From positions 62,001 to 126,000 of the forward strand of contig NZ_VIRG01000053.1 in the NCBI RefSeq assembly GCF_008107695.1: a stretch of DNA of 64,000 nt, in the 5' to 3' direction. This document shows, one piece after another, positions 8,773-56,410 of this stretch (the first letter of the stretch is position 1; each line of letters begins with the position of its first letter). Below the pieces are notes generated by a model. The model worked only from the letters and a program-made list of their open reading frames with translations. It did not search any database and was not told where the DNA came from. The stretch is from Stappia sp. BW2 (GTDB taxonomy: Bacteria; Pseudomonadota; Alphaproteobacteria; Rhizobiales; Stappiaceae). Both the position numbers and the translations under genes were made by a program.

Positions 8773-8845
8773 TTATTCTCGCCCGCGTCCGGACAGGTTC
8801 AAGTGGCGAAACATCGATTTCGCGCCCTGTCGCTTCGGATCGGTG

Positions 8846-8868
8846 GTGGACCGGGGAAACGCCCCGGT
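8846..8868 (-). repeat. Intercistronic stem-loop between glpV and glpS
   Basis: A perfect 9-bp inverted repeat, GGACCGGGG with a 5-base loop and CCCCGGTCC, in the gap after the binding-protein gene. There is no T tract on the glp strand, so it is more likely an mRNA-stabilising or partially attenuating hairpin than a full terminator. Comparable hairpins follow three other leading binding-protein genes here. Confidence 0.6.
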
Positions 8869-8946
8869 CCGGTTTGTCGGGTGATGAGTGCCCGGGCACC
8901 GTATTCTGCCTGGCAGAAACAATGCCCGTGCACGTCGCGCCGGGGT

Positions 8947-40217: not shown

Positions 40218-40379
40218 GGCCAAAACTTTGAATAGCAGTTTTGAATGGCTATAAGTTAGCTGCTATTCTGGAATCGGACGGAAAGGCTCCAGACGGCAAA
40301 GTTGGCCGCGCGGGACGCGAGTTGCGCGGGCAGGAGAGAGGCGCTGGCAAAAAGTGCCCGCGATGAGAGGATCCTGAGA

Positions 40380-41597
40380 ATGGACGTGAACGCGTATCTG
40401 GAAGAACGCCTGGGCAAACTGCATGACAATGGTAATTACCGCGTCTTTGCAGATCTGGAACGCCAGGCAGGTGATTTTCCGCGCGCAACCCGTTACCGCG
40501 AGGATGGTTCGGTTCAGGATGTGACCGTCTGGTGCTCCAACGACTACCTCGGTATGGGCCAGAACGAAAAGGTCGTGTCCGCAATGCAGGACGTGATCTC
40601 CAAATGCGGCGCTGGCGCTGGCGGAACGCGCAATATTTCCGGCACCAACCACTACCATGTTCTTCTGGAGAACGAGCTGTCCGACCTTCACGGCAAGGAA
40701 GCGGCTCTGATCTTCACCTCCGGTTATGTTTCCAACTGGGCAGCGCTCGGCACGCTCGCCTCCCAGGTTCCGGGCATGATCGTCTATTCGGACTCGCTCA
40801 ACCACGCCTCCATGATCGAGGGCATCCGCCACGCCCGTTGCGAAAAACGCATCTTCAAGCACAACGACTATGAAGATCTGGAACGCCAGATGGCAGCGGA
40901 CGATCCGGACGCGCCGAAGCTGGTCGCATTCGAGAGCGTCTATTCCATGGATGGCGACATCGCGCCGATCAAGGAAATCTGCGACGTTGCCGACAAGTTC
41001 GGCGCGCTGACCTATCTCGACGAAGTGCATGCCGTCGGCATGTACGGCCCACGCGGCGGCGGCGTTGCCGAACGCGAAGGCCTGATGGACCGTCTGACCA
41101 TCATCGAAGGCACGCTCGGCAAGGCTTTCGGCGTCATGGGCGGCTACATCACCGGCTCGAAGACGGTGGTCGACTTCGTCCGCTCCTTCGCATCCGGCTT
41201 CATCTTCACCACCGCCCTGCCGCCGGCACTGGCAGCAGGCGCAACCGCCTCCATCCGGCACCTGAAGGACAGCCCTTTCGAGCGCAAAGCGCACAAGGAC
41301 CGGGTCGCCCAGGTCCGCGCCGCCCTCGACAAGCGCGGCATCCCGCACATGGAAAACCCGAGCCACATCGTTCCGGTGATGGTGGGCGATGCCAAGAAGT
41401 GCAAATGGATCTCCGACATCCTTCTGGAGACCTACGGCATCTACGTTCAGCCGATCAACTACCCGACGGTTCCGGTCGGCACCGAGCGCCTGCGCTTCAC
41501 TCCGACCCCGCTGCACACGGCCGAGGACATCGAACACCTCGCCAGCGCGATCAACGACCTGTGGTCGCAGTGCGCACTGGCCCGCGCTGTCGCGTAA
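40380..41597 (+). CDS. hemA: 5-aminolevulinate synthase
   Basis: A 405-residue PLP enzyme condensing glycine with succinyl-CoA to 5-aminolevulinate, the first step of haem synthesis by the C4 route used by alphaproteobacteria. Seen: [41 protein letters not shown], and the PLP lysine Lys248 in [13 protein letters not shown]. Length and residue number of the lysine agree with Rhodobacter-type enzymes. The start is the ATG that begins the conserved [11 protein letters not shown]; a GAGG lies 11 bases upstream. Upstream lies an FNR/FixK box, downstream a strong terminator, so it is monocistronic. Confidence 0.97.
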
Positions 41598-42800: not shown

Positions 42801-42948
42801 CCGTGAAACGGCCCTTGCACGGACCTTTCCAGTTGCATTTTCGCTTTTGGCAAATCACGGCTGTCACACAAGCGCGTCATCGCATTATGATTTGAGACGA
42901 CAGCCCAAGCTATCCTAACGTCACTGCGTGCAAGGGGGAATTCGTTTC

Positions 42949-44196
42949 ATGACAACCGGCCTGTTGCTTCTGGCACTGTTTACGGTCAGCTACACACTGC
43001 TGGCCAGAACACTGTCCAACGGCATATTGACGGCGCCGATCCTTTTCATCGGCTTCGGTTACCTGATGGCGCAGACCGGACTGATGCCCGGCACCGACGC
43101 GGAACGCCTGCTGCACATCGTTGCCGAACTGGCTCTCATCGTCCTGCTGTTTCTGGACGCGGCACAGATCAACCTGCAGGCCCTGCGCCAGCGCCACCAA
43201 TGGCCCTTGCGCATGCTTGCCCTCGGCCTGCCGTTGGCCATCATTATCGGCACACTGGCCGCAATACCCTTTCTGAGCGGTGAACCGCTTATCGTCGCAG
43301 CCCTTGCCGCCGCGCTACTCGCCCCGACCGATGCCGCGCTCGGCCAGGCGGTCATCACCAACAAGGCTGTGCCGGAGCGGGTAAGACGGGCCCTGACGCT
43401 GGAAAGCGGTCTCAATGACGGGCTGGCGCTGCCGGCCGTTCTGCTGTTCGCGAGCCTTGCCGGCGAAATGATGCAGCCGGGCGCGACAGACTGGCTGATG
43501 TTCGGCGCCAAGCAGCTGCTTCTCGGCCCGCTGGCAGGCGCAGCTCTCGGCGCGGTGGGCGGAGTCCTGTTTCTGGCGGCCAAACGCCGGGGCATGACCA
43601 CCGACACCATCGAAGGCATCGGCGCCATCGCCATGGCCTGCGGTGCATATCTTGCCGCTGACGAAATCGGCGGCAACGGCTTCATTTCAGCGTTCGTTGC
43701 AGGCCTCTTCTTCGGCAACGTCATCAAGGGCCAATGTGCCTTCATTTACGAATTCACCGAAAGCGAAGGGCAGATGCTTTCCTGGGGCGCGTTCTTCCTG
43801 ATCGGCCTTGCCCTGGTGCCAGAAGCCATCGCGCACCTTGATGCCGGCAGCCTGACACTCATTCTGGTGAGCCTGTTCGTGGTGCGCCCGCTAGCCGTCT
43901 GGCTCTCGCTTTCCGGGACGGATGCCGCCCCGCTGACCAAGCTCTTCTTCGGCTGGTTCGGCCCGCGTGGACTGGCGACCGCCCTGTTTGCGCTTCTCAT
44001 CGTTGACCAGATCGATCACGCAATCGGCCAGCAGTTGCTGAACCTGGCCGTCAACGCGGTCTGGATCAGCGCGGTCCTGCACGGCATCACGGCCGTGCCT
44101 TTTGCAAGGTGGTACGCGGCCCATATGTCCGGCCAGGACGATGCCGCGGAACTCAAGGCGATGCCCGCCATGCGGCCGGAGGTAACGGCAGACTGA
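42949..44196 (+). CDS. CPA1-family cation/proton antiporter (NhaP-like)
   Basis: A 415-residue inner-membrane protein with about 12 hydrophobic segments. The ion-binding motifs of CPA1 antiporters are present: APTDAALGQAVI and the ESGLNDGLALP helix with the Asn-Asp pair. It should exchange Na+ or K+ for H+. Its soluble C-terminus is short (about 25 residues) compared with eukaryote-like NHE proteins. The start at 42949 follows AGGGGG; an in-frame GTG upstream overlaps that ribosome site. It lies 53 bp ahead of the Rieske operon on the same strand, possibly co-transcribed. Confidence 0.88.
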   Translation: MTTGLLLLALFTVSYTLLARTLSNGILTAPILFIGFGYLMAQTGLMPGTDAERLLHIVAELALIVLLFLDAAQINLQALRQRHQWPLRMLALGLPLAIIIGTLAAIPFLSGEPLIVAALAAALLAPTDAALGQAVITNKAVPERVRRALTLESGLNDGLALPAVLLFASLAGEMMQPGATDWLMFGAKQLLLGPLAGAALGAVGGVLFLAAKRRGMTTDTIEGIGAIAMACGAYLAADEIGGNGFISAFVAGLFFGNVIKGQCAFIYEFTESEGQMLSWGAFFLIGLALVPEAIAHLDAGSLTLILVSLFVVRPLAVWLSLSGTDAAPLTKLFFGWFGPRGLATALFALLIVDQIDHAIGQQLLNLAVNAVWISAVLHGITAVPFARWYAAHMSGQDDAAELKAMPAMRPEVTAD

Positions 44197-44249: not shown

Positions 44250-45860
44250 ATGACAAGACAGGTTGTTGCCAAACTCAGCGAACTGCAGGACAGGAAACCG
44301 CACTACGCCCTCGTCGCCGATGTCGACCTTGTGGTCGTCCGCTTCGACGACGACATCTCCGTCTTCTACGGCCGCTGCCTTCATCGCGGCGCGCTCATGT
44401 CCGATGGCTACGTCAGCGGCAACAATCTCATCTGCGGCGTCCATTACTGGGACTACCGGCTCGACAGTGGTGTGTCCGAGTACAACAACTCCGAGGCCCT
44501 GCCGAAATTCACGAGCTGGGTTGAAGGCGACGATGTGCTGGTGGACGCGGACGAAGTCGCTGCCTGGGCACAGGAAAATCCGCAACCGTTCAACCGCGAA
44601 AGCTATCTTGGGCTTTATGCCGACACCAGCCACGGCACCGAGGAAGAACCGTATAATGGCCTGATCCAGCAATATGCCCGCGATGGCCTCAGCAAGACGG
44701 GACATCATGGCCGTGTCGACGCCATGGGCGTGCCGCGCAACCAGTTGCCAGACTGGGACGACATCCAGATCCTGACGGCTCAATTACAGAAATTCCCGCT
44801 TCTGGAGGACGAGCCGGTCGGCACCGATGTGGTGGTTGGGCCGAACGCCCAGAAGCCGCTGAGGCTGAAGATACCGCTACTTGTGTCCGATATGAGCTTC
44901 GGTGCCCTGTCGGAGCCGGCCAAGATCGCCCTTGCCAGAGGCGCGGAGCTTGCGGGCACCGGCATCTGCTCAGGTGAAGGCGGCATGCTGCCGGAAGAAC
45001 AGCAGGCCAATTCAAGGTATTTCTATGAACTTGCCTCGTCCCGTTTCGGCTTTTCCTGGGACAAGCTCGACAAGGTTCAGGCGTTTCACTTCAAGGGCGG
45101 CCAGGGCGCCAAGACCGGCACCGGCGGCCATCTGCCCGGAGCCAAGGTCAGGGGCAAGATTGCCGAAGTGCGCGGTCTTGAGGAAGGTGAAGACGCCATC
45201 TCGCCGCCCCGTTTTCCGGACTGGACGGACCTCTCCCAGATAAAGGATTTCGCCGACGAGGTGCGCACCCGCACCGGCGGCATTCCCATCGGCTACAAGC
45301 TGTCGGCCCAGCACATCGAAAACGATATCGATGCGGCGCTGGAAGTGGGTGTCGATTACATCATCCTCGACGGCCGCGGCGGAGGCACCGGGGCCGCGCC
45401 GATCATCTTCCGGGACAACATCTCCGTTCCAACCATCCCCGCCCTCGCCCGCGCCCGGCTGCACCTGGACAACTCGGGACGGCCGGACGTCACGTTGATC
45501 ATCACCGGCGGCCTGCGCAAACCGGCCGATTTCATCAAGGCTCTGGCGCTCGGTGCCGATGCTGTGGCGCTTTCCAATTCGGCCATGCAAGCCATCGGCT
45601 GCATAGCCATGCGAGCCTGCCAAACCAACAATTGCCCAGTCGGGATCGCCACCCAGAAGCCGCATCTGGTCAACCGGCTGGAAATCGAAAAATCCGCCCG
45701 CCAGCTCACCAACTTCTTCGAGGCCTCGGTCGAGCTGATGCAGGTCATGGCGAGGGCCTGCGGCTATTCGCACCTGAACCAGTTCGCTCTGGAAGACCTG
45801 ACAACCTGGAAGCGGGAAATGGCCGAGCTATCCGGCGTTGCCTATGGCGGCATCGCCTGA
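44250..45860 (+). CDS. Rieske domain fused to glutamate-synthase FMN domain
   Basis: A 536-residue fusion. Residues about 1-105 are a Rieske [2Fe-2S] domain with Cys43-x-His45 (CLHRG) and Cys62-x2-His65 (CGVHYWDY). From about 145 to the end is the FMN-binding alpha/beta barrel of the glutamate synthase large subunit: SDMSFGALSEPAK, FHFKGGQGAKTGTGGHLPG, DGRGGGTGAAP. The 3Fe-4S Cys set is 451, 457 and 462 (CIAMRACQTNNCPVG). There is no amidotransferase or GXGXG domain, so it is not an ordinary GltB; MgsC of N-methylglutamate synthase is a similar stand-alone FMN domain. Electrons probably pass Rieske to 3Fe-4S to FMN or the reverse. First gene of the redox operon, with GGGGGAA before the ATG. 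Confidence 0.85.
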   Translation: MTRQVVAKLSELQDRKPHYALVADVDLVVVRFDDDISVFYGRCLHRGALMSDGYVSGNNLICGVHYWDYRLDSGVSEYNNSEALPKFTSWVEGDDVLVDADEVAAWAQENPQPFNRESYLGLYADTSHGTEEEPYNGLIQQYARDGLSKTGHHGRVDAMGVPRNQLPDWDDIQILTAQLQKFPLLEDEPVGTDVVVGPNAQKPLRLKIPLLVSDMSFGALSEPAKIALARGAELAGTGICSGEGGMLPEEQQANSRYFYELASSRFGFSWDKLDKVQAFHFKGGQGAKTGTGGHLPGAKVRGKIAEVRGLEEGEDAISPPRFPDWTDLSQIKDFADEVRTRTGGIPIGYKLSAQHIENDIDAALEVGVDYIILDGRGGGTGAAPIIFRDNISVPTIPALARARLHLDNSGRPDVTLIITGGLRKPADFIKALALGADAVALSNSAMQAIGCIAMRACQTNNCPVGIATQKPHLVNRLEIEKSARQLTNFFEASVELMQVMARACGYSHLNQFALEDLTTWKREMAELSGVAYGGIA

Positions 45861-45889
45861 CCGGCGCGTTTCTTGAGGGAGGAAGACCA

Positions 45890-47866
45890 ATGGACGCTCA
45901 GGATCTCGACTGGATCAAGGTGGGACACGTCAACGATCTGCCGCAAGGCCGGGTAAAAACGGTGACGGCCCGAACGACATCGATCTGCCTGTCGCATTTC
46001 GACGGCCAGTGGGCCGCCATGGACAACCATTGTCCGCATCAGCGCGGCCCGCTGGGAGAAGGCTCCATCGAAAAGGGATCGGACGGCAAATGCTGGATCC
46101 GCTGCCCCTGGCACGGGTGGGATTTCGACCCGCTGACGGGCGCTCCTCCCGGCGGTCATGAAGACAGCGGCCAGAAGCTCTATCCCCTGCGAATCGAAGG
46201 CGACGAGATCTTCATCGGTCTGGAACCGGAGCCGCCCCATGAACGCACAGTCACCGACGTCATGGCCGAAACGATGGTCAACTGGGGCGTCAAGCGTGTC
46301 TTCGGCATGGTCGGCCATTCCAACCTCGGCCTTGCCGATGCCATCCGCCGGCAGGTCAACACGGGCGCATTGGGCTATGTCGGCATTCGCCACGAGGGCG
46401 CAGCGGCCTTCGCCGCCTCCGCCTATGGCAAGCTGACCGGCAAACCGGCGGCCTGTCTCACCATTGCCGGGCCCGGCGCGACAAATCTTCTGACCGGCCT
46501 CTGGGACGCCAAGGTTGACCGGTCTCCGGTACTGGCCCTTACCGGTCAGGTGCAGACCCAGGTGTTCGGCCCGGGGGCCTTTCAGGACATTGATCTGAAA
46601 TCCGCGTTCGAAGCCGTCTCGAAGTTTTCCCAGCCGGTGCTCAGCACCTCCAACCATGCCGAACTGATGTCGCTGGCCTTGAAAACCGCGCTGGTGGAGC
46701 GGGACGTTGCCAACCTGATTTTCCCGGACGATGTCCAGACCAACCCGAGCAGCAGGGACGCTGGCAAACCCGAGGGTCGCCTTGGCGGAACCTCCGTCAC
46801 GCCCTCCGGTGAAGACCTTGCCAGGGCCGTTGAGATGATCAACACGGCCAGACGCCCCGTTATCGTGCTCGGTTATGGCGCCAGGGATGTCCGCGACAAG
46901 GTCATCGCGCTGGCCGAAAAGATCGGCGCGCCGGTTCTTACCACCTTCAAGGGCAAGGGGCTGATCCCCGACACGCACCCGCTGGCAGCCGGCGTTCTTG
47001 GGCGTTCCGGAACCCCGATTGCAAGCTGGTTCATGAATGAGGCGGATCTGATCGTCTCGCTCGGGTCGTCTTTTGCCAATCACACCGGCATCGCCCCCTA
47101 CAAGACCATCATCCAGGTGGATTTCGAGCGCATGCAGCTTGGCAAGTTCCATCCCGTGACCCTGCCTGTCTGGGGCGAGATCGGCACCTTCTGCGAGGCG
47201 ATTGTCGATCAGGTCCTGAAACCGGCCGATGCCCCCGACCAGGCAAGCGAACTGGTGGAACGCTGGACGATCTGGCGCGCAGAAAAGGAACATCGCCTTG
47301 CAGAGGACAGCGGCAGGGGCATTCACTCGGCGGCCGTCTTCAAGGCATTGAGCGATCTGTGCCCACCGGACGCGATCCTCCCGGTCGACGTCGGCAACAA
47401 CACCTATTCCTTCGGCCGCTATTTCGAACCTTGCGGACAACGCATCCTGATGTCCGGCTATCTCGGCTCCATCGGCTTCAGCCTGCCTGCGGCCCTGGGC
47501 GCCTGGAGCGCGACCCAGGATTTCGAGGAATTCCGCGGCCGCAAGGTGATCTCGATTTCCGGAGACGGCGGCTTCGGCCAATACGCCATGGAGTTCACCA
47601 CCGCCGTCAAATACGGAATGGATATAACCCATATCCTTTTGAACAATTCAGAGCTCGGCAAGATCTCCAAGGAACAACGTTCCGGCGAATGGCCGGTCTG
47701 GGAAACGAACCTCACCAACCCCTCCTTCGCCGCCTTCGCGCGCCTCTGCGGCGGGCACGGCCACAGGGTGACGGAGGCTGCCGAACTGAAAGACGCCATC
47801 ACGGATGCCATCGCCCATAACGGCCCCTCACTGGTGGAAATCATCACCGATGCGGATCTGGTGTGA
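45890..47866 (+). CDS. Rieske domain fused to a ThDP-dependent (acetolactate synthase/pyruvate oxidase-like) enzyme
   Basis: A 658-residue fusion. Residues about 10-110 are a Rieske domain with Cys48-x-His50 (CPHQRG) and Cys72-x2-His75 (CPWHGW). From about 120 onward is a complete ThDP enzyme: N-terminal PYR domain with catalytic Glu169 (IRHEGAAAFA), middle domain (RPVIVLGYGARDV), and PP domain with GDG at 558-560 and Asn585-Asn586. It should decarboxylate or cleave a 2-oxo acid and hand electrons to the built-in Fe-S cluster. ThDP oxidoreductases usually use FAD or a separate ferredoxin. The start follows GAGGGAGGAAGACCA. It lies 29 bp after the Rieske-FMN gene. Confidence 0.85.
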   Translation: MDAQDLDWIKVGHVNDLPQGRVKTVTARTTSICLSHFDGQWAAMDNHCPHQRGPLGEGSIEKGSDGKCWIRCPWHGWDFDPLTGAPPGGHEDSGQKLYPLRIEGDEIFIGLEPEPPHERTVTDVMAETMVNWGVKRVFGMVGHSNLGLADAIRRQVNTGALGYVGIRHEGAAAFAASAYGKLTGKPAACLTIAGPGATNLLTGLWDAKVDRSPVLALTGQVQTQVFGPGAFQDIDLKSAFEAVSKFSQPVLSTSNHAELMSLALKTALVERDVANLIFPDDVQTNPSSRDAGKPEGRLGGTSVTPSGEDLARAVEMINTARRPVIVLGYGARDVRDKVIALAEKIGAPVLTTFKGKGLIPDTHPLAAGVLGRSGTPIASWFMNEADLIVSLGSSFANHTGIAPYKTIIQVDFERMQLGKFHPVTLPVWGEIGTFCEAIVDQVLKPADAPDQASELVERWTIWRAEKEHRLAEDSGRGIHSAAVFKALSDLCPPDAILPVDVGNNTYSFGRYFEPCGQRILMSGYLGSIGFSLPAALGAWSATQDFEEFRGRKVISISGDGGFGQYAMEFTTAVKYGMDITHILLNNSELGKISKEQRSGEWPVWETNLTNPSFAAFARLCGGHGHRVTEAAELKDAITDAIAHNGPSLVEIITDADLV

Positions 47867-47887
47867 TGGGGTTTCAGGATGAGACTT

Positions 47888-48000
47888 GCCATCCCCGCGA
47901 AGGCAGGGAGCCAGTAGACACCGCGAGGGGTTTGTTGCGATACTTCATCGTCCGCAAATACTGGATCCCGGCCTCCCGCTACGCTTCAGCCGGGATGACA
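47888..48000. repeat. Dispersed intergenic palindromic repeat, copy B
   Basis: A composite element: a left half CCATCCCCGCGAAGGCAGGGA and a right half CTGGATCCCGG...CCGGGATGACA with inverted arms ATCCCGGC/GCCGGGAT. It occupies most of the 163-bp gap inside the Rieske gene run, so it may split that run into two transcripts or add an mRNA hairpin. Related to the copy at 56803-56914. Confidence 0.6.
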
Positions 48001-48029
48001 AGGAGTGGACAGGACGCAGGGGGAGCGCG

Positions 48030-48251
48030 ATGCAAACAGCAGCCATTCTGATTGACATCGGAAAATACTATCTCATGGCCGGCGGGCTGGTCGCGGCACT
48101 GTTTCTTGTTATCGGCATCGATCGAGTGGAACCGTCCGCACGCGGATCTCATGTGTTCCGGCCCTTGCTCATTCCCGGTATCTGCCTGATCTGGCCTCTG
48201 GTGCTCTATCGCTGGTACGTGCTTGAAAAACACGGGGAGGCTGGCCGGTGA
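48030..48251 (+). CDS. Small two-helix membrane protein of the redox operon
   Basis: 73 residues with two hydrophobic segments, ILIDIGKYYLMAGGLVAALFLVIGID and FRPLLIPGICLIWPLVLYRW. I do not recognise a family. GGGGGAGCGCG precedes the ATG. Its stop overlaps the next gene's GTG start, placing it firmly in the operon. Likely a small subunit of the membrane complex built around the ferric-reductase-like protein. Confidence 0.7.
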   Translation: MQTAAILIDIGKYYLMAGGLVAALFLVIGIDRVEPSARGSHVFRPLLIPGICLIWPLVLYRWYVLEKHGEAGR

Positions 48252-48415
48252 AACGTGCGCACCGCAAGGTTCATACCCGTATCTGGACCATCCTTGGCCT
48301 GCTCCTGCCGCTGGTCTTCTTCACCATTCTGGCCATGCGCCAGTCGCCCCCCGCGGACAGACCGGCTGTGCTGATCGAGGCCCCGGCAGAAAGCTCCGGG
48401 GAGGCAAGCCAATGA
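48248..48415 (+). CDS. 55-residue single-helix membrane protein (GTG start)
   Basis: A very short gene: GTG start at 48248 inside a GTGA overlap with the previous stop, TGA stop overlapping the next ATG (ATGA). The protein has a basic N-terminus (KRAHRKVHTR), one transmembrane helix (IWTILGLLLPLVFFTILAM) and a short acidic/proline tail. Topology by positive-inside is N-in, tail outside. The overlaps at both ends are the main evidence that it is real. No family recognised. Confidence 0.65.
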   Translation: MKRAHRKVHTRIWTILGLLLPLVFFTILAMRQSPPADRPAVLIEAPAESSGEASQ

Positions 48416-49479
48416 GCGTGCAATACACACCGGTCATCTGGAACCGCAACAAGATGGTCTATGATGCCGTCCTGCTGATTGCCGTCGCGCTTTATCTTTA
48501 CGTCTTTATTCGTGTCGGCCCGTTCTACGAGGACGTCACCCGGCCAATCGATGGGGCCATCCTGAGGATGCGCGCTTTCGGAAGCTGTGCCTTCCTGATG
48601 CTGACGGTGATCCTGTGCATCGGCCCGCTGGCACGGCTCGACCGTCGCTTTCTGCCACTGCTCTACAACCGCCGCCATTTCGGCGTGATGACCGCCGGTA
48701 TTGCCGCCGTTCACGCCAACTATGTGCTCGGCTGGTATTTCAATTTCTCGCCGACCGACCGCTACATTGCGCTGCTGTCCTCCAACACCAGCTACGGGCA
48801 GATCCTCGGCTTTCCCTTCGAGGCTTTCGGCATTGCCGCGCTGTTGATCCTCTTCGTGCTGGCCGCCACCAGCCATGATTTCTGGCTCAGCTTTCTGGGA
48901 GCGCCGATCTGGAAGGCGCTGCACATGTTCATCTATGCCGCCTATGTTTTCGTGGTGCTGCATGTGGCGCTCGGTGCGTTGCAGGGATCGTCCGATCCCA
49001 TCTTCACCGGCATGGTTGCGGCAAGCGTTGTTCTGGTCTGCGGCCTTCACTTTGCAAGCGGGCGTCTGGAAGCCAATCGGGAAAAGAACGATGCAACGGC
49101 AAAGGCTTCGCTGGAGGAAGCCGGCTGGGTTGTTGCCGGAGAGGTGGACGAGATCGACGACAACTGTGCCAAGGTCGTAACCCTGAGCGATGAGGAACGT
49201 GTCGCCATCTTCAGGTATGACGGCAAGCTGTCCGCCGTCACCAATGTCTGCGCCCACCAGAATGGCCCGCTTGGCGAGGGCAAGGTGCTGTGGGGCTGCA
49301 TCACCTGCCCCTGGCACGGATATCAGTACAATCTGGCCGACGGCTGCGCGCCCGCGCCCTTCACCGAGAAGATCGCCACCTACAAGCTGAAGCTGGTCGG
49401 CTCCACCGTTCTTCTGGCCCCGAAAGCCCTGCCGCCCGGAACCTATGTCGAGCCGGTCGTGATCGGAGGTGCGTCATGA
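48412..49479 (+). CDS. Ferric-reductase-like transmembrane protein with C-terminal Rieske domain
   Basis: 355 residues. Residues about 1-225 contain six or so hydrophobic helices of the ferric-reductase-like haem b fold, with His89/His101 (RRHFGVMTAGIAAVH) and His171/His184 (HMFIYAAYVFVVLH) as probable bis-haem ligands. Residues about 245-355 are a Rieske domain with Cys280-x-His282 (CAHQNG) and Cys299-x2-His302 (CPWHGY). The FAD/NAD domain usual in ferric reductases and NOX is replaced by the Rieske module. It would move electrons between a cytoplasmic-side Fe-S cluster and the membrane haems. Coupled by 4-bp overlaps to both neighbours. Confidence 0.82.
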   Translation: MSVQYTPVIWNRNKMVYDAVLLIAVALYLYVFIRVGPFYEDVTRPIDGAILRMRAFGSCAFLMLTVILCIGPLARLDRRFLPLLYNRRHFGVMTAGIAAVHANYVLGWYFNFSPTDRYIALLSSNTSYGQILGFPFEAFGIAALLILFVLAATSHDFWLSFLGAPIWKALHMFIYAAYVFVVLHVALGALQGSSDPIFTGMVAASVVLVCGLHFASGRLEANREKNDATAKASLEEAGWVVAGEVDEIDDNCAKVVTLSDEERVAIFRYDGKLSAVTNVCAHQNGPLGEGKVLWGCITCPWHGYQYNLADGCAPAPFTEKIATYKLKLVGSTVLLAPKALPPGTYVEPVVIGGAS

Positions 49480-50237
49480 GCTGGAAACAAACCAAGGCGG
49501 CTCCGTTTTTCGTCGGCTATCTCAACAAGGTGCCAAAACCGCTGGTCGCTTTTGTCGGCGTCTTCTCCCTGTGCTTTGTCGCAGGGCTTGGCCTTGCGGC
49601 CTTTGCCCTGTCCTCCACCCAGAACGACCCGGGCAACGGTGCGTTTCAGTGGGGCAACCGGTTCGAACAAACTGGCCTGCTGGAACTGCGCCCCTATCCG
49701 GTGTTCCGCCTTCCCGCCGATGGCGACACCCCTGCCCGCACCTACATGCTGGCCGGTCAGGGCAAACGGGGTGTGTTCAAACAGGCGGAAGCCAATCGCG
49801 AGACGCCAGTGACCTTGCGCGGAGTGCCGGTAAACCGGGGCGACCTGACGATGATCCAGGTCGGTCAGGTGGAAGCTGCAACGAACGCTGCCCCCGGTTT
49901 CAATCCAGCCGAACCGGTCTCGCTGGGACGCTGGAAACTGACCGGCGAAATCTGCGACGGCAAGTGCTACGCGGGCGCCATGCGCCCGGGCCGGGGCCTT
50001 GCACACAAAGCCTGCGCGGATCTCTGCCTCACCGGCGGCATTCCCCCGGTCTTCGTCTCCTCCGGACCAGTCGAGGGACGCACCTTCTTTCTCATGGCCG
50101 GCAAGGACGGCCAGCTTCTTGGCGAGGCCATTGATCCACTGCTGGCGCTTTACATCGAGGTCGAAGGCGAGGTCGAAAAACTGGACGACCTGATGGTCTT
50201 CAAGGCGGACCTTCTGACCGCACGGGTGTTGAAATGA
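49476..50237 (+). CDS. Membrane-anchored protein with Cys/His metal-site-like motif
   Basis: 253 residues. A transmembrane helix (PLVAFVGVFSLCFVAGLGLAAFAL) follows a short N-terminal tail, then about 200 residues likely in the periplasm. A striking cluster, Cys160-x3-Cys164 ... His177-x2-Cys180-x3-Cys184 within CDGKCYAG and HKACADLCLTGGIPP, suggests a metal or haem-linked site. I have no firm family name. GGAGG precedes the ATG, which overlaps the previous stop, and its own stop overlaps the next ATG. Likely the periplasmic arm of the same redox complex. Confidence 0.7.
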   Translation: MSWKQTKAAPFFVGYLNKVPKPLVAFVGVFSLCFVAGLGLAAFALSSTQNDPGNGAFQWGNRFEQTGLLELRPYPVFRLPADGDTPARTYMLAGQGKRGVFKQAEANRETPVTLRGVPVNRGDLTMIQVGQVEAATNAAPGFNPAEPVSLGRWKLTGEICDGKCYAGAMRPGRGLAHKACADLCLTGGIPPVFVSSGPVEGRTFFLMAGKDGQLLGEAIDPLLALYIEVEGEVEKLDDLMVFKADLLTARVLK

Positions 50238-50479
50238 GTGACCATCCGCAGAAGCCGCTCTGGCAGACCATCGTGATCTCACTCATGATGACGGCACTCC
50301 TTGCCACGATTGTCTGGGCCGTCTGGACCTACGCGAACAAAGGCGTTCAGGAATTCGCGCCCGGCTCGTTTCTGCGCGACTTACGCTTCTTCATCGGGCT
50401 GCTCGCCGTGTTTATGGTGCTCAGCGTGCTGGACCGGATAGTCGAGTTCGTGAAGGCGAAACTGGGCGGCGGGCACTGA
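50234..50479 (+). CDS. Small two-helix membrane protein, last gene of the redox operon
   Basis: 81 residues with two hydrophobic segments, TIVISLMMTALLATIVWAVWTY and LRFFIGLLAVFMVLSVL, separated by a short polar loop. Family not recognised. Its ATG overlaps the previous stop in ATGA. It ends 86 bp before the convergent alpha/beta hydrolase gene. Confidence 0.7.
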   Translation: MSDHPQKPLWQTIVISLMMTALLATIVWAVWTYANKGVQEFAPGSFLRDLRFFIGLLAVFMVLSVLDRIVEFVKAKLGGGH

Positions 50480-50565: not shown

Positions 50566-51348
50566 TCAGCCCTTCACCAGCTCCCGCAGCAGACTGTTGA
50601 ACTTTTCCGGTTCTTCCATGTGCGGTGCATGGCCTGACACCTCGAAACCGTGAAAGTGACAGTCCGGAACATTGTCCGCGTGCCAGCGATGCACGCCCGG
50701 GCCGTAGAGTTGGCTGCACAGACCGGCGACCAGATGAAACGGCACGGGAAAGGCTTTCAGAAGCGGGCGGAAATCCTGCGCCGTCAACGAGGCCCACATC
50801 GGCTTCAAAAGCACGGGATCGGCTGCGGCAATTTCAGTACGGGCAAGCGCTTCGGCGGCCTCCGGCACCGGCAGACCTTCCGCGAAAAGCCTTCTTGCAA
50901 TCCGGGCGGGTAACCGCGCCCAGTCCGCGACGATGGCGTTCAGGAAATGACCGTTGAGGTCTGCATTGAGGCCGTTCAGCGTTCCATTCTGCCAGTCCGG
51001 ATCATTGAGCACCTTCGGCGTCATGTCGATGGCAACGAACTGGGAAACCCTCTCCGCGCCATGGCGCTCGATCATCGCGTAAGACACCAGTGCGCCCATG
51101 GACCAGCCGCACAGGATCGCATCCGTCAGGCCCCGTTCGGCAAGGGCCGCATGAACCGCATCGGCAGCCGCCTCGATCGTCAGGGGCAGCCGGTCGGCCG
51201 TTTTGCCATGTCCCGGCAGGTCCGGAACGATGCAGCGGGCATCTGCCTTGAGCGCATCGACCTGAGCATCGAAGAAACCGCCTGGACAGGACCAGCCGTG
51301 GATCAGCACCAGCGGTCTGCCCGTTCCCTCGTCGCGGATGTGCATCAT
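50566..51348 (-). CDS. Alpha/beta hydrolase (BioH-like fold)
   Basis: A 260-residue hydrolase. The oxyanion region is LVLIHGWSCPGG, the nucleophile elbow GWSMG and the catalytic His SGHAPHMEEP. At the usual acid position after strand 7 it reads AGLCSQLYGPG, without an obvious Asp, so the acid may come from another strand. Start chosen at ATG 51348; a GTG at 51360 overlapping the livM stop (GTGA) is an alternative adding four residues. Last gene of the liv-type operon, it may cleave an ester or amide of the imported compound. Confidence 0.8.
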   Translation of the reverse strand: MMHIRDEGTGRPLVLIHGWSCPGGFFDAQVDALKADARCIVPDLPGHGKTADRLPLTIEAAADAVHAALAERGLTDAILCGWSMGALVSYAMIERHGAERVSQFVAIDMTPKVLNDPDWQNGTLNGLNADLNGHFLNAIVADWARLPARIARRLFAEGLPVPEAAEALARTEIAAADPVLLKPMWASLTAQDFRPLLKAFPVPFHLVAGLCSQLYGPGVHRWHADNVPDCHFHGFEVSGHAPHMEEPEKFNSLLRELVKG

Positions 51349-51356
51349 ATTCCCGC

Positions 51357-52418
51357 TCACGCACGCCCTGCCCGTAACCGTCCGACAATGCCCGTCGGGA
51401 AAAAATAGACCGACAGAATGAAGAGGACACCCAGCCACAGCAGCCAGCGTTCCGGCGCTACCAGCGTCGAGACCACCGGCACCGCGCTGGTCGCCTCGGC
51501 AGCAACCCCCATCAGATAATGCAGGTAGGTCTGCGCCAGAATGAACAGGGTTGCCCCGAGCACGGCCCCGTAGAGCGTGCCCATGCCCCCTATCACGACC
51601 ATCAGCAGAATGTCGATCATGATCTCCATGGAGAGCGTTGTCGCCGGGCCGGTGTAGCGGAGCCAGATGGCCAGAAGAGAGCCGGCAAGCGCTGCCATGA
51701 CTGCGGACAGAACGGTGGCTGTGGTGCGGTACCAGACCACGCGGTAACCGATCGCTTCCGCCCGGAAGGCATTGTCGCGCACCGCCTTCAGCGTGCGCCC
51801 GAAGGGGGAATTGACGATGCGCAGCATGACCAGGAACAGAATTACAGCGGCGAAGAAGACCAGATAATAGGCCAGGATCTTGCCGTTGATGCTGACGTCG
51901 AACACCTTGGCCTTGATCAGCTTGAAAGCCGGCGTCAGCTCGCGCGGGATCTTGTAATTGAGCCCGTCCTCACCGCCTGTCAGCCACGACATCTGCGACA
52001 CCAGCACGGCAAAGGCGCTTGCCACCGCCAGCGTTACCATGGCGAAGAAGATCGCTTTCACCCGCAGCGAAAACAGCCCGATGGCCAGCGCAAACAGCGC
52101 CGCGACACCAGCTCCCGCCGCCGTGCCCCAGACCAGGGCTCCATAGCTCGGCCCGGTGGTCGAGAGCGCCAGCGCGGTGCCGTAGGCCCCGATGCCGAAG
52201 AACATGGTGTGCGCGAAGGAAACGATGCCGGCATAGCCCAGCAGCAGATCGTAGCTTGCCACCAGCACGATGAAGATGCAGATGCGCGCAGCCGTCTCCA
52301 GCGACTTGGTGCCGGGAAAGAGAAACGGCGCGAAGGCCAGCGAGATCAGCACGATCAAAAGCAGCGCGGTCAGAAGACCGCTGCGCGGTGTGTCGCCGGA
52401 AAGAAGTCTGGTCAGCAT
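51357..52418 (-). CDS. livM: LivM-type branched-chain ABC permease
   Basis: A 353-residue membrane permease of the HAAT family with 9-10 hydrophobic helices. The ICIFIVLVASYDLLLGYAG and FGRTLKAVRDNAFRAEAIGY segments are diagnostic for LivM, the latter being the ATPase coupling region. It pairs with LivH 15 bp upstream in the operon. Substrates in this family range from branched-chain amino acids to amides, urea and aromatic acids; the C-terminal RLRAGRA tail is not informative. Confidence 0.88.
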   Translation of the reverse strand: MLTRLLSGDTPRSGLLTALLLIVLISLAFAPFLFPGTKSLETAARICIFIVLVASYDLLLGYAGIVSFAHTMFFGIGAYGTALALSTTGPSYGALVWGTAAGAGVAALFALAIGLFSLRVKAIFFAMVTLAVASAFAVLVSQMSWLTGGEDGLNYKIPRELTPAFKLIKAKVFDVSINGKILAYYLVFFAAVILFLVMLRIVNSPFGRTLKAVRDNAFRAEAIGYRVVWYRTTATVLSAVMAALAGSLLAIWLRYTGPATTLSMEIMIDILLMVVIGGMGTLYGAVLGATLFILAQTYLHYLMGVAAEATSAVPVVSTLVAPERWLLWLGVLFILSVYFFPTGIVGRLRAGRA

Positions 52419-52433
52419 TCTCTTGTCCCGTCC

Positions 52434-53462
52434 CTACTTCGCCTTGACGACCGGATAGAGGCCCTGCGGCCGCCACATCAGCACCGCAACCATCAAGGCG
52501 ATGGTCGAGATCAGCGCCACCTTTGGCGCCAGAAACGCGGTGTAATTGGCGAGCAGCCCCACCAGCATGGCGCCGATGAAACAGCCTTCGACCGAGCCGA
52601 GCCCTCCGATGATCACGACGATGAACACCAGCACCATGATCTCCGAGCCCATGTGCGCGGTAATCGTTTCCTGATAAAGGCCCCACATGACGCCGCCCAG
52701 CCCGGCCAGTGCCGATCCGGTCATGAACACGATCAGGAACAGGCGGCGGACGCGGTAGCCCAGCGCTTCGACCATCTCGCCGTTCTCCACCCCGGCCCGC
52801 ACCAGCAGGCCGATCTTGGTGTTCTTCAGGATGTGGCGCATCCCCAGGAACAGGGCGAGGCCGATGCCCACGGCCACAAGCCGGTATTTCTCGATGGCCG
52901 CTTCGCCGATCACCAGCGAGCCCTGCAAGGCTTCCGGGCGGGACATGTGCAGCTCGTCCGGGCCCCAGACCACATAGATCATCTGCTGCGCGACAATAAG
53001 CCCGCCCATGGTGACAAGGATCTGCTTCAGGTGTTCGCCATAGACCGGCATCACGATCACCCGTTCGAAGGCAAGGCCAAGCAGACCGGTGACAAGCATT
53101 GCTGCAAGGATCGCGACCAAAACCGCAGTCAGGTTCATGAACACGCTTGGCGAAGCCGTCCAGCCTGCCAGCCAGGCCAGAACCGTGAAGCCGACAAAGG
53201 CCCCGACAGCGACAAAGGCGCCATGGCCGAAGTTGATCACGTCCATCAGCCCGAAGACCACCGTCAGGCCAGACGCCATGATGAAGATCATCATGCCCAT
53301 GGCAAGCCCGGCCACCGTCAGCGTCAGCCAGCTTGCCGGATTGCCGATGGCGATGAGGCCCACAGCGGCCAGCACCGGCACCAGCAGTACCGGCAGTTTC
53401 TGGGCAAGCTGTTCTTTCAGCGGGATTTTCTCGATCCGCGGTTTGATCGCCGTCTCGCTCAT
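52434..53462 (-). CDS. livH: LivH-type branched-chain ABC permease
   Basis: A 342-residue HAAT permease with a longer cytoplasmic N-terminus (about 22 residues) than E. coli LivH. Hallmarks are GLTVVFGLMDVINFGHGAFVAVGA and the coupling segment KIGLLVRAGVENGEMVEALGY. Its ATG overlaps the livF stop (4 bp). Works with LivM as the inner-membrane channel. Confidence 0.88.
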   Translation of the reverse strand: MSETAIKPRIEKIPLKEQLAQKLPVLLVPVLAAVGLIAIGNPASWLTLTVAGLAMGMMIFIMASGLTVVFGLMDVINFGHGAFVAVGAFVGFTVLAWLAGWTASPSVFMNLTAVLVAILAAMLVTGLLGLAFERVIVMPVYGEHLKQILVTMGGLIVAQQMIYVVWGPDELHMSRPEALQGSLVIGEAAIEKYRLVAVGIGLALFLGMRHILKNTKIGLLVRAGVENGEMVEALGYRVRRLFLIVFMTGSALAGLGGVMWGLYQETITAHMGSEIMVLVFIVVIIGGLGSVEGCFIGAMLVGLLANYTAFLAPKVALISTIALMVAVLMWRPQGLYPVVKAK

Positions 53463-54184
53463 TGATGTGCCTCCAGGCTCAGTCCCATGAGTTTTTCCTG
53501 CAAGGCCACATCCGCCACCAACTCGTCCATGCGTCCGGAATGAATAATGCGGCCATCATCCATCACCGCGACCGTGTCGCCGATGCTGGAGGCCATGGCG
53601 AAATTCTGTTCCACCAGCAGGATGGTGGTGTCGGTTTCCTTCAGTTCCTTCAGCGCGTCGGTCATCGCCTTGATAATCGCCGGGGCGAGACCCTTGGTCG
53701 GCTCGTCGATCAGGATCAGCCGGCGCGGTTCGATGATCGCACGCGCCACGGACAGCATCTGCTTCTGACCACCGGACAGCGTGCCCGCAGAAGAGTTCCA
53801 GAAGTTGCCGATCGGCGGAAACAGCTCCTTGATCCACGCAAGACGTTTTGGGTCCATCGGTCCGTTGGCTGCGGCCAGGATCATGTTTTCGGCAACCGTC
53901 AGATCGGTGAAGATGCCCATGTCTTCCGGCACCAGGGCGATCCCCCTGCGAGAGATTTCCGGGGTCGATAGCTTCGTGATCACATGATCGCCAAACCGGA
54001 TACCGCCCTGGCTCGCGGTCCAGAGACCCATGATCGTCCGCAAGGTGGTGGTCTTGCCAGCGCCGTTGCGGCCGAGCAGAACGGTCACGCCGCCCTCCGG
54101 CACCGCAAGATCGACACCCTGCAAAATGTGATAGGGGCCGATATGAGTATGAACGCCGGACAGGGTGAGCAGGTTCTCCGCCAT
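53459..54184 (-). CDS. livF: LivF-type ABC ATPase
   Basis: A 241-residue short ABC ATPase. Walker A is GRNGAGKTT, signature LSGGQKQM, Walker B LILIDEPTKGLAP and switch LVEQNF, as is normal for LivF where the switch His is absent in this subfamily's VEQN form. The ATG at 54184 shares its A with the livG stop; a GTG one codon upstream is possible. GGGGAGG lies upstream. Paired with LivG. Confidence 0.9.
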   Translation of the reverse strand: MAENLLTLSGVHTHIGPYHILQGVDLAVPEGGVTVLLGRNGAGKTTTLRTIMGLWTASQGGIRFGDHVITKLSTPEISRRGIALVPEDMGIFTDLTVAENMILAAANGPMDPKRLAWIKELFPPIGNFWNSSAGTLSGGQKQMLSVARAIIEPRRLILIDEPTKGLAPAIIKAMTDALKELKETDTTILLVEQNFAMASSIGDTVAVMDDGRIIHSGRMDELVADVALQEKLMGLSLEAHQ

Positions 54185-54966
54185 CACGCAACCTCCCCGG
54201 ACGAGGCCGGCGCCTTGCCGAGATAAGCCTCCTGCACGATTGGCAGGGCAATCACCTCCGACGGTTCTCCATCGGCCACCAGTGCCCCGTTGTGCAGAAT
54301 GATGATGCGGTCGGCCAGGGTGCGGATGACATCCATCTTGTGTTCCACCAGCAGGATCGTGCGGTCCATGTCGCTCTTCAGTTTCTTGATCAGCTCCAGG
54401 ATCACCGGCACTTCATCGACGCTCATGCCCGCGGTCGGTTCGTCGAACATCAACACCTGCGGGCCAAGGGCGATCAGCAGCGCCACTTCCAGCTTGCGCT
54501 GGTCGCCGTGTGGCAAGGCGGAAACGGTCTGGTCTGCCTGATCGCTAAGCCGGACCTCCGCCAGCACATGGTCTGCCCGCTCCAGAAGCTCGACATGGCT
54601 TTCGGCAACGCTGAAGAGATCGAAGCCCTTGCGGGCCTTTGCCTGTGCCACCAGGCGCACGTTTTCGCGCACGCTCAACGTCGGGAACAGATTGGTCAGC
54701 TGGAAGGCGCGGCCGATGCCCCTGTCCGTGCGCTCGGGCACCGACAGTCTGGTGATGGCCTCGCCGTTCAGGAGAACCGAGCCGGCGGTTGCGCTCAACT
54801 GGCCGGAGATCAGGTTGAAATAGGTGGTCTTGCCGGCGCCATTCGGCCCGACGATTGCCGTCAGCGTGCCGCGCTCGAACGCGCAGGAAACGTGATCGAC
54901 CGCCACATGACCGCCGAAGCGGATGGTCAGGTCTCTCGTTTCCAGAATCGGGTGTTCCTTGGCCAC
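54184..54966 (-). CDS. livG: LivG-type ABC ATPase
   Basis: A 260-residue ATPase with Walker A GPNGAGKTT, the LivG-typical ERTDRGIGRAFQLTNLFPTLSV region and Walker B VLMFDEPTAGMS with switch VEHKMD. The signature is degenerate: LPHGDQRK rather than LSxGxQ, the form common in LivG-like proteins. Separated from livK by a 143-bp gap with a stable stem-loop. Partner of LivF. Confidence 0.9.
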   Translation of the reverse strand: MAKEHPILETRDLTIRFGGHVAVDHVSCAFERGTLTAIVGPNGAGKTTYFNLISGQLSATAGSVLLNGEAITRLSVPERTDRGIGRAFQLTNLFPTLSVRENVRLVAQAKARKGFDLFSVAESHVELLERADHVLAEVRLSDQADQTVSALPHGDQRKLEVALLIALGPQVLMFDEPTAGMSVDEVPVILELIKKLKSDMDRTILLVEHKMDVIRTLADRIIILHNGALVADGEPSEVIALPIVQEAYLGKAPASSGEVA

Positions 54967-55013
54967 GATGCGCGTTCCCAGGTTTGAAATGTCGCGAAAG
55001 CTGTATCGGAAAT

Positions 55014-55049
55014 GTGCCCGGCCGAACGGGCGTCTCGCCAGCCGGGCAC
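55014..55049 (-). repeat. Intercistronic stem-loop between livK and livG
   Basis: A 9-bp perfect inverted repeat GTGCCCGGC / GCCGGGCAC around an 18-base loop. No T tract follows on the operon strand. Probably protects the livK message or reduces read-through into livGFHM. Confidence 0.6.
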
Positions 55050-55109
55050 TTTATTGGTTCTTGGGGCCACGCAGGCGAAACGCAAGGCTCCGCCGCGTCT
55101 TCGCAAGGC

Positions 55110-56309
55110 TTACTGGTTGCGCACCGGGATGTTCATGTCCTCTATTTTCAGTTCGCGCACCAGCTCCGGGATGCCCCATTCGACATCCGGGTCGACCTTG
55201 ATCTTGAAGTGATACATGGACTGCAGAGCCTGGTGATCGTCCGCACGGAACATCATCTTGCCCTTGGGCGTTTCGAACTCCATGCCTTCCATGGCGGCAA
55301 TCAGATCCTCGGTCTCCGTGGAACCCGCCTTGCGGATCGCCTCGACAATGGCGATACCGGCCGACATGCCACCCGCGGTGAAGAAATCCGGCGGAGCGTC
55401 AAAGCGCTTCTGGTGCTCTGCCACCAGCCAGTCGTTCACCGGGTTCTTCGGGATCTCGTAGTAATAGTAGGTCGCACCTTCCATACCCGGCAGTTCCTTG
55501 TAGGCCGCCATGGCCGCCAGGATGTTGCCGCCCGTGGCAATCTCGACACCGAAGCGCTCGGGCTCCATTGCCTTGATCTTGCTGATCGGGTTACCGCCGC
55601 CGGCCCAGATCACGAAGAGGAACTTGCGGCCCGGCTCATCTTTCAGGGCATCGAAGACGCGCTGTGCGTTGGCGGTGAAATCCTTGGTATCGGTCGGAGC
55701 GTATTCCTCGAACACCAGCTTGGCTCCGCTGCCTTCCAGCGCTTCCTTGAAGGCGGCAACGCCGTCACGGCCGAAAGCATAGTCCTGGGCGAGCGTCGCG
55801 ATGGAGACGCCTTCCTGCCCGAGCGCAACGGCGTTGGAAATCGCGTCCTGGGATGAATTGCGCGAGGTGCGGAAGATATAGCGGTTCCAGTTCTCGCCGG
55901 TGATGCTGTCGGCCACCGCCGGCTCCACCAGCAGCACCTTCTCGTATTCTTCGGCGACAGGCAGCATGGCCAGCGCAACACCGGAGGAGACAGGGCCGAC
56001 GGCGATATCGACTTCATCGTCGCCATAAGCTTCCGCCAGCGCGGCCTTGCCGATATCCGGCTTCAGCTGCGTGTCCTTCTCGATGACCACGATCTTGCGG
56101 CCGTCGATTTCCATGGTGCCGTCAGTGGCATATTCGAGGCCCATCATCAGGCCGGTATGCGACTGTTTCGCATAGGCCTCCAGGGCACCGGTCTTGCCGT
56201 AGACGTGAGCGATCTTGATATCGTCGGCCTGGGCGCCGGCAATTCCGGCAGCCGCCACACCGATGCCGGCCACAAGCGGCACGGCCCAGCGAAAAACGCG
56301 TTTCGTCAT
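55110..56309 (-). CDS. livK: LivK-type ABC substrate-binding protein
   Basis: A 399-residue periplasmic binding protein with signal peptide MTKRVFRWAVPLVAGIGVAAAGIAGAQA and mature start DDIKIAHVYGKTGALEAYAKQ. It belongs to the type I LivK-like group, but the KTGALEAYAKQ start is like those of aromatic- or carboxylic-acid-binding members rather than leucine-binding LivK. First gene of livKGFHM-hydrolase. Start 56309 follows GGAGGAGAATTC. A TGAATCAGTATTCA site about 100 bp upstream suggests TetR control. Confidence 0.88.
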   Translation of the reverse strand: MTKRVFRWAVPLVAGIGVAAAGIAGAQADDIKIAHVYGKTGALEAYAKQSHTGLMMGLEYATDGTMEIDGRKIVVIEKDTQLKPDIGKAALAEAYGDDEVDIAVGPVSSGVALAMLPVAEEYEKVLLVEPAVADSITGENWNRYIFRTSRNSSQDAISNAVALGQEGVSIATLAQDYAFGRDGVAAFKEALEGSGAKLVFEEYAPTDTKDFTANAQRVFDALKDEPGRKFLFVIWAGGGNPISKIKAMEPERFGVEIATGGNILAAMAAYKELPGMEGATYYYYEIPKNPVNDWLVAEHQKRFDAPPDFFTAGGMSAGIAIVEAIRKAGSTETEDLIAAMEGMEFETPKGKMMFRADDHQALQSMYHFKIKVDPDVEWGIPELVRELKIEDMNIPVRNQ

Positions 56310-56410
56310 GAATTCTCCTCCCGTTGCGCGAAAGGCCGAAAACCTGCCGAGCCGCTCCCACGACTTTGGACAGGGCAACATCATCGCCTGACGCGGCATC
56401 ATATGACACC

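Follow-up and report, generated by a model that had tools for sequence, protein, structure and literature searches.

Rieske domains are usually found in cytochrome bc complexes, in oxygenases and in the ferredoxins of the latter. The accessible text of PMC3591440 describes ferric reductase domains with a Rieske module (module M4, Rieske and flavin mononucleotide (FMN)), that of PMC5859297 describes proteins of CDGSH-Glu_synthase architecture, and that of PMC6237917 lists an FMN-binding GltS family protein as the nearest relative of the N-methylglutamate synthase subunit MgsC. Here we analyse a 64,000-nucleotide stretch of Stappia sp. BW2 (contig NZ_VIRG01000053.1, positions 62,001 to 126,000 of the forward strand; hereafter the window). 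The host is a marine bacterium, and the window carries a recurrent and apparently undescribed cluster of seven genes, A to G, in which three Rieske domains are attached to three different partners: a GltS-type FMN domain (A), a thiamine diphosphate (ThDP) enzyme (B) and a ferric-reductase-domain cytochrome (E). We favour, at a confidence slightly short of even, the reading that A and B are flavoenzymes passing electrons through their Rieske domains to E, and from there to the periplasmic side or to quinone. The parts belong to known families and the arrangement seems new; a search of the open-access literature, with subscription journals and preprints outside its range, found no description of the system. 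The statement of an earlier, sequence-only reading that the set matches no known pathway stands for the system and does not extend to its single parts, which have precedents in the accessible texts of PMC3591440 and PMC5859297.

The Rieske domains of A, B and E all score above the Pfam cut-off and carry the ligands C-x-H ... C-x2-H. Gene calls and Pfam domains reproduce the seven same-strand genes that the sequence-only reading had described at 44250-50479; the three tiny membrane proteins it mentioned are C, D and G, and the ligand sets it had called intact are kept in the aligned homologues of all three Rieske proteins, one gap in A excepted. Conservation of ligands and other residues was scored on the window proteins together with homologues from 87 loci, among which L017 and L077 are one locus entered twice. 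The genome of 6.44 Mb has 10 Rieske matches in all, and with this number under random placement about 0.0002 Rieske triples would be expected within 5.2 kb. Four-nucleotide overlaps occur at the C-D, D-E, E-F and F-G junctions (Table 1). The B-C gap measures 163 nt, compared with 9-204 nt across seven Roseibium-group loci holding both genes; a search for inverted repeats in this gap found none, and promoter-like or terminator-like sites at the locus are not more frequent than in shuffled sequence.

A scan for the E family matched at least 591 stretches, of which 590 encode a relative, many perhaps matched by the Rieske part alone, and linkage fractions are given for the best 80 named loci. These carry up to 10 kb per side, some being shortened by contig ends; L043 among them is the same locus as the separately fetched L015, and not every record is titled alphaproteobacterial, L052 being titled Nitrosovibrio. 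The closest of the 80 to the window's E come from Roseibium and Labrenzia. A lies near E in 32 loci, B in 24 (two B copies incomplete) and both in 20. The copies placed by script (32 of A, 23 of B) have their midpoints within 4.2 kb of that of E, and 30/32 A and 22/23 B lie on the same strand as E. At least four gene orders exist among the E loci with A: A-B-CDEFG in Roseibium and in L034, A-C(D)EF-B in other loci, C(D)EF-A-B in three, and A-C(D)EF, with B missing, in several. Of the 21 loci examined, 7 have a 4-nt overlap between A and C. Pairwise distances between homologues, computed on the 20 loci with A, B, E and F plus the window, correlate for E-F (r = 0.97), for A-B (0.79) and for A or B versus E or F (0.69-0.85), values that shared ancestry alone also yields.

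Co-occurrence was then counted in whole genomes, namely in a family sample of 149, nearly all of different genera and taken as Rhodobacteraceae from genes common with named Roseobacter-group loci, and in a class sample of 190. Matches of at least 50% identity were counted as B, lower ones being other ThDP enzymes, and matches with the Rieske part present were counted as A, which left out 34 of 40 class and 10 of 24 family genomes having only Rieske-less A matches (in the family sample, 13 such matches in 12 genomes). The family sample contains E in 14 genomes, A in 14 and B in 8, with A and E together in 9 (Fisher p = 4e-8), B and E in 7 (p = 9e-8), A and B in 8 (p = 6e-10), and all three in 7, phylogeny being ignored in these tests; all 8 B genomes have A, and 7 have E. 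Judged by position, 6 of the 9 genomes have A and E next to each other. In the class sample A occurs in 6 genomes, B in 10 and E in 10, and each pair in 5, which are the same five genomes (phylogeny again ignored). E stands without A in 5/10 class and 5/14 family genomes, and in three of the eight family genomes with both A and B (G190, G314 and G315) the two are neighbours, with E at another place or missing. This is the comparison proposed with the sequence-only reading, and its outcome is that A-B, A-E and B-E recur together, in varied orders, with overlaps and across genera, so that their co-occurrence is not rare. The genes are strongly, though not obligatorily, associated, in part at the level of the genome rather than of the operon. 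That the three Rieske proteins are chance neighbours without a shared function is hardly credible: each component does occur alone and some genomes hold all three apart, but linkage in varied orders, the overlaps, the co-occurrence tests and the presence of A and B in another domain of life (below) all speak against coincidence.

A combines an N-terminal Rieske domain (PF00355, 46.9 bits) with a Glu_synthase domain (PF01645, 302.4 bits), both over cut-off. Its Rieske ligands C43 and H45 are kept in 33/33 sequences and C62 and H65 in 32/33, the exception being a gap; the cysteines of the [3Fe-4S] motif C-x5-C-x4-C are kept in 33/33 (C451 and C462) and 32/33 (C457). Pfam detects no glutaminase domain in A, nor in any of the seven proteins, and the full-length glutamate synthase model NF008730 matches A with 128.8 bits, below its cut-off of 1047. 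No second GltS-type match was found in the window's genome at E<=1e-60. In one locus, L140, an A-type enzyme (8608-10140) carries two CDGSH-type motifs replacing the Rieske domain; its FMN domain is 69% identical to A over 406 aa, and this variant fits an exchangeable electron port. The gene after the L140 enzyme resembles, by eye, an MscS-type channel. In L139, from a genome without detected E, an aminotransferase gene starts where A ends, in line with amino acid metabolism. Two related proteins, 35% identical, are encoded beside A in L141 (9840-10688), where A is apart from C-G, and beside B in L132 (10364-11107), where E was not found; a Pfam search with the L132 protein gave no match.

B carries a Rieske domain (60.3 bits) and the three TPP_enzyme domains N, M and C (PF02776, PF00205 and PF02775, 114.6, 122.6 and 110.4 bits), all over cut-off. 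The Rieske ligands C48, H50, C72 and H75 are present in 24/24 sequences, as is the ThDP glutamate E169, and the GDG motif is present in 23/23. The four curated models nearest to B are pyruvate oxidases or dehydrogenases, and the nearest pyruvate oxidase model, NF006377, gives 386.6 bits, below its equivalog cut-off of 742. In the pyruvate oxidase PoxB, the active-site residue Phe465 and the C-terminal membrane tail matter for function. Alignment of the two proteins covers B residues 119-653 and ends at PoxB residue 527 of 572, i.e. without the C-terminal tail, and the position of Phe465 is occupied in B by K591 in 23/23 sequences. Judged from the alignment, this lysine argues against a plain pyruvate oxidase, and a substrate with a second acidic group could be favoured. 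As B has no docking tail of the PoxB type, the Rieske domain of B would stand in for direct reduction of quinone.

The product of E combines a Ferric_reduct domain (PF01794, 43.4 bits, cut-off 28) with a Rieske domain (PF00355, 62.4 bits), whose ligands C280, H282, C299 and H302 are kept in 87/87 sequences. The histidines at positions 89, 101, 155, 171 and 184 are likewise found in 87/87 and His 213 in 86/87, and Arg87 is invariant among 63 aligned sequences. The spacings R87/H101 and H171/H184 are 14 and 13; in the accessible text of PMC3591440, bacterial ferric reductase domains have haem-position spacings of 14 and 13, with Arg first as in YedZ and STEAP, and E shows the Arg/His/His/His pattern given there for the YedZ-type domain. 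The structural model of E (mean predicted local distance difference test score (pLDDT) 86.6) contains six long helices, five being predicted by hydropathy alone, and Rieske ferredoxins of dioxygenases are the best among the Foldseek matches listed for it. Positively charged residues in the loop preceding helix 3 point to a cytosolic location of both termini of E, and hence of its Rieske domain.

In F, the motif D161-x-K163-C164-x12-H177-x2-C180-x3-C184 lies in the second barrel, and all motif residues are kept in 86/86 sequences. The F model (pLDDT 86.0; residues 166-168 under 50) consists of an anchor helix and two barrels. Searched by sequence against the PDB, F gave no significant match, and Foldseek with the model returned weak OB-fold matches (best E 0.025). 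Full-length F-type proteins were found in 7 of 299 genomes of the phylum, all from the window's class or order, and a partial match alone in 2 more. Small proteins like the second half of F are encoded at L158:7390-7851, L159:7552-8073 and L157:7493-8077; a SCO1-like gene, so labelled by eye, is among the next genes in L158 and L159, i.e. in 2 of the 4 such loci fetched. Pfam gave zero matches at E<=1 for C, D and F and sub-cut-off matches only for G. C homologues occur in 82/87 loci, and in 37 of these 82 they are as long as a C-D fusion; D was found as a separate match in 32/87 loci, the longer C proteins bearing a D-like tail. G-like proteins occur in 9/87 loci, and elsewhere a small protein without detected similarity to G comes after F (matches in 23/87 loci).

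These features also bear on a different role for the membrane module, in which E and F would form a periplasmic reduction system like MsrPQ, for repair of oxidised or chlorinated targets or for metal reduction, with A and B as two of several cytosolic donors. The YedZ/STEAP-type haem residues of E and its weak match to the MsrQ equivalog model (33.7 bits, below the cut-off of 130) agree with such a role, as do the anchored F with its conserved Cys/His site and the fact that most of the 80 E loci have no A or B nearby. A Rhizobium locus with C-G lies near sigma-70, chlorite dismutase family and NrsF family genes, but among 91 other loci a chlorite dismutase gene was found in L068 only, and a sigma factor or NrsF gene in none; moreover, F belongs to no Pfam family and has no clear match among solved structures. 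No Pfam match to a molybdopterin oxidoreductase, as expected of an MsrP-like partner, was found among A-G, the antiporter upstream of A, a DUF1194 gene and the hydrolase downstream. We regard this role as unlikely. The Rhizobium locus is on a plasmid (L171:704-13385), and its C-G genes are also near genes for a non-Rieske ThDP enzyme, a CoA-transferase, OpgC and a TPR protein; about ten loci share the ThDP/OpgC/TPR part. The neighbours of C-G alone were considered as a guide to function and gave no clear one, the set of Rieske-less ThDP enzyme, CoA-transferase, OpgC and TPR protein recurring in about ten loci, and the TRAP transporter and DctBD-like genes (by eye) near some loci were likewise set aside for their little recurrence.

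Relatives of the soluble pair were found outside the bacterial class of the window. Full-length relatives of B are encoded on four haloarchaeal plasmids (57-60% identity) and one Mycobacteroides plasmid (51%), and full-length relatives of A including the Rieske domain on three of those haloarchaeal plasmids (60-61% identity), where A and B are 1.4, 4.0 and about 17 kb apart; a separate comparison put two full-length haloarchaeal homologues of A at 61-63%. With E as query at E<=1e-40, plasmid sequences gave five Rhizobium records and no haloarchaeal one; the search covered plasmids and not archaeal chromosomes. On the haloarchaeal plasmids L165, L166, L168, L169 and L170, A and B have neighbours such as genes for DsrE, rhodanese, TauE/SafE, DUF3179 and mercury reductase, although not every plasmid has them all; these hint at sulfur or metal stress.

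An NhaP-type antiporter gene that the sequence-only reading had overlooked, lying outside its coordinates, ends 53 nt before A. Counted over the named loci L022-L101, the antiporter is found in 11 of 32 loci with A versus 0 of 48 without (p 1e-5), and 5 of the 11 are from Roseibium or Labrenzia. It also adjoins A in two genomes in which A is unlinked to C-G (L141 and L142) and lies near B in L134. Counting against a link between antiporter and A are L163 and L164, which have A and B without an antiporter, and L018, a C-F locus lacking A that has a weak antiporter match of half length (25%) nearby and lies outside the counts. In Halorarius a sodium:proton antiporter gene lies 43 nt downstream of B. 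At the Mycobacteroides locus a cation:proton antiporter gene is found 3.1 kb from B, together with a flavodoxin-family gene, whose product is 44% identical to an FMN reductase-like protein beside B in L134. Compared with the window's antiporter, those of Halorarius and Mycobacteroides show 27% identity over part of the sequence or no match, so that several antiporters may have been recruited separately.

Antiporters beside A or near B in Alphaproteobacteria, beside B in Halorarius and 3.1 kb from B in Mycobacteroides, together with the conserved GltS domain of A and the occurrence of A and B without E on haloarchaeal plasmids, speak for a biosynthetic cycle. In such a cycle, B would oxidise a 2-oxo acid and send low-potential electrons through the Rieske domains to A, which would use free ammonia to aminate 2-oxoglutarate or a different 2-oxo acid; E would serve as a side exit or entry, and in salt-loving hosts the product would be glutamate, as counter-ion and compatible solute, with the antiporter handling Na+ or K+. 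However, A has no glutaminase domain, and C-G, for which a cycle of soluble enzymes alone has no use, are often beside A and B in Alphaproteobacteria. We regard this explanation as unlikely. His-ligated [2Fe-2S] clusters are pH-sensitive, and the antiporter linkage and the CDGSH variant of A would also suit Rieske domains that sense redox state or pH and so gate A and B instead of conducting electrons. The cluster's third Rieske domain, which sits on a transmembrane protein of haem type, and the gene overlaps make this improbable.

In the reading we favour, A and B would be soluble, cytosolic flavoenzymes that release electrons via their Rieske [2Fe-2S] domains; the electrons would reach the membrane via the matching, probably cytosolic, Rieske domain of E. 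E would hand the electrons over haem b toward the outer face, where either F, anchored and with a Cys3-His site, or quinone would accept them, and C, D and G may be small subunits of the membrane complex of E. Having a GltS-type FMN/[3Fe-4S] domain without a glutaminase domain, A would convert an amino acid to a 2-oxo acid or the reverse, and cleavage of a 2-oxo acid would fall to B. With a 2-oxo acid as product or substrate of A and as substrate of B, the simplest pathway would be successive oxidations, from amino acid to 2-oxo acid and on to a shorter acid plus CO2 with one shared electron exit; the antiporter may handle ions or ammonium involved. Of all this, the gene structure, the ligand conservation, the co-occurrence with its varied orders and overlaps, and the link of A to the antiporter are observed. 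The substrates, the order of steps, the potentials, a flavin in B, the transfer from Rieske to Rieske and its direction, F as acceptor, the membrane complex, the topology of E and the part played by the antiporter are inferred. A more specific version is possible, though on balance doubtful: the cluster may be a unit for oxidation of amino acids and 2-oxo acids independent of nicotinamide adenine dinucleotide (NAD), in which GltS-type and ThDP enzymes are Rieske-coupled to a dedicated haem b-Rieske membrane complex with a periplasmic Cys3-His protein. If true, it would be a hitherto undescribed way for electrons to enter respiration, with a soluble half common to halophilic archaea.

Several observations weigh against electron flow from A and B to E. 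In the DNA fetched for the 80 closest E loci, A is missing from 48 and B from 56, so the membrane module must draw on different donors or have another role. In 5/14 family and 1/6 class genomes with A there is no E, and 5/10 class genomes with B have neither A nor E. Even where the genes occur together they may be dispersed, A and E being apart in 3 of 9 family genomes (G190, G206 and G314) and A, B and E at separate places in 3 of the 5 class genomes that have them (G009, G143 and G123). On haloarchaeal plasmids A and B occur without E there, so the soluble pair stands without this membrane module, at least in that setting. Finally, with Lys for the Phe of PoxB, redox chemistry of flavin adenine dinucleotide in B is not assured from its sequence. 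The interpretation of the sequence-only reading thus survives in so far as the set is recurrent and membrane-linked electron transfer is its natural reading, and it has to be amended in that the set of three Rieske proteins is not obligatory.

Table 1. Genes of the cluster and the adjoining antiporter gene (window coordinates; TM, transmembrane)
Gene	Product	Position	Strand	Length (aa)	Remarks
A	Rieske-GltS(FMN)	44250-45860	+	536	
B	Rieske-ThDP, pyruvate-oxidase-like	45890-47866	+	658	
C	Small protein, two predicted TM segments	48030-48251	+	73	Hydropathy
D	Small protein, one predicted TM segment	48248-48415	+	55	
E	Ferric-reductase-domain cytochrome with C-terminal Rieske domain	48412-49479	+	355	
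F	N-terminal TM anchor, two OB-like barrels, Cys/His motif	49476-50237	+		
G	Small protein, two predicted TM segments	50234-50479	+	81	Hydropathy
Antiporter	NhaP-type CPA1 cation/proton antiporter	42928-44196	+		PF00999, 131.6 bits; probable extra unit member

Upstream of the antiporter, a 5-aminolevulinate synthase-type gene (40362-41573, + strand) encodes a product 91.6% identical to that of L027 and occurs in 5 Roseibium-group loci; haem supply is a possible role. Downstream, the region 50566-56402 on the - strand, facing the unit, holds an alpha/beta hydrolase gene and genes resembling, by eye, an LIV-type ABC transporter. Neither was retained as part of the unit: among the 80 named loci, L024-L028 alone have the hydrolase, and genes similar to the transporter recur in L024-L028, L042 and partly in L019.

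The interest of the cluster lies in one domain type marking two enzymes of the central-metabolism type and a transmembrane cytochrome that recur together. The Rieske domain as a common electron plug is a simple hypothesis and a testable one, the A and B pair spans Alphaproteobacteria and haloarchaea, and F is without a clear match among solved structures. Among known systems, cytochrome bc1 and the Rieske oxygenases have the Rieske cluster ligands in common with A, B and E; a bc1-like complex or a Rieske oxygenase was rejected, as Pfam finds no bc1-type cytochrome b or oxygenase catalytic domain in the seven proteins. YedZ/MsrQ and the bacterial ferric reductase family resemble E in the ferric reductase domain with Arg and then three His at the haem positions, whereas the locus differs from YedZ/MsrQ in that F has no Pfam assignment, so that no partner resembling MsrP was detected. 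PoxB of E. coli, a ubiquinone-dependent pyruvate dehydrogenase (PDB 3EY9/3EYA), shares with B the ThDP domains, the conserved ThDP glutamate and the GDG motif, but B adds an N-terminal Rieske domain, does without the C-terminal tail and has Lys for Phe465. The closest known counterparts of A are the FMN domain of glutamate synthase and MgsC; A has the Glu_synthase domain with three cluster cysteines, and is set apart by a Rieske domain of its own and by having no glutaminase domain. CDGSH-Glu_synthase proteins have the same FMN domain as A, preceded by an N-terminal CDGSH rather than a Rieske domain.

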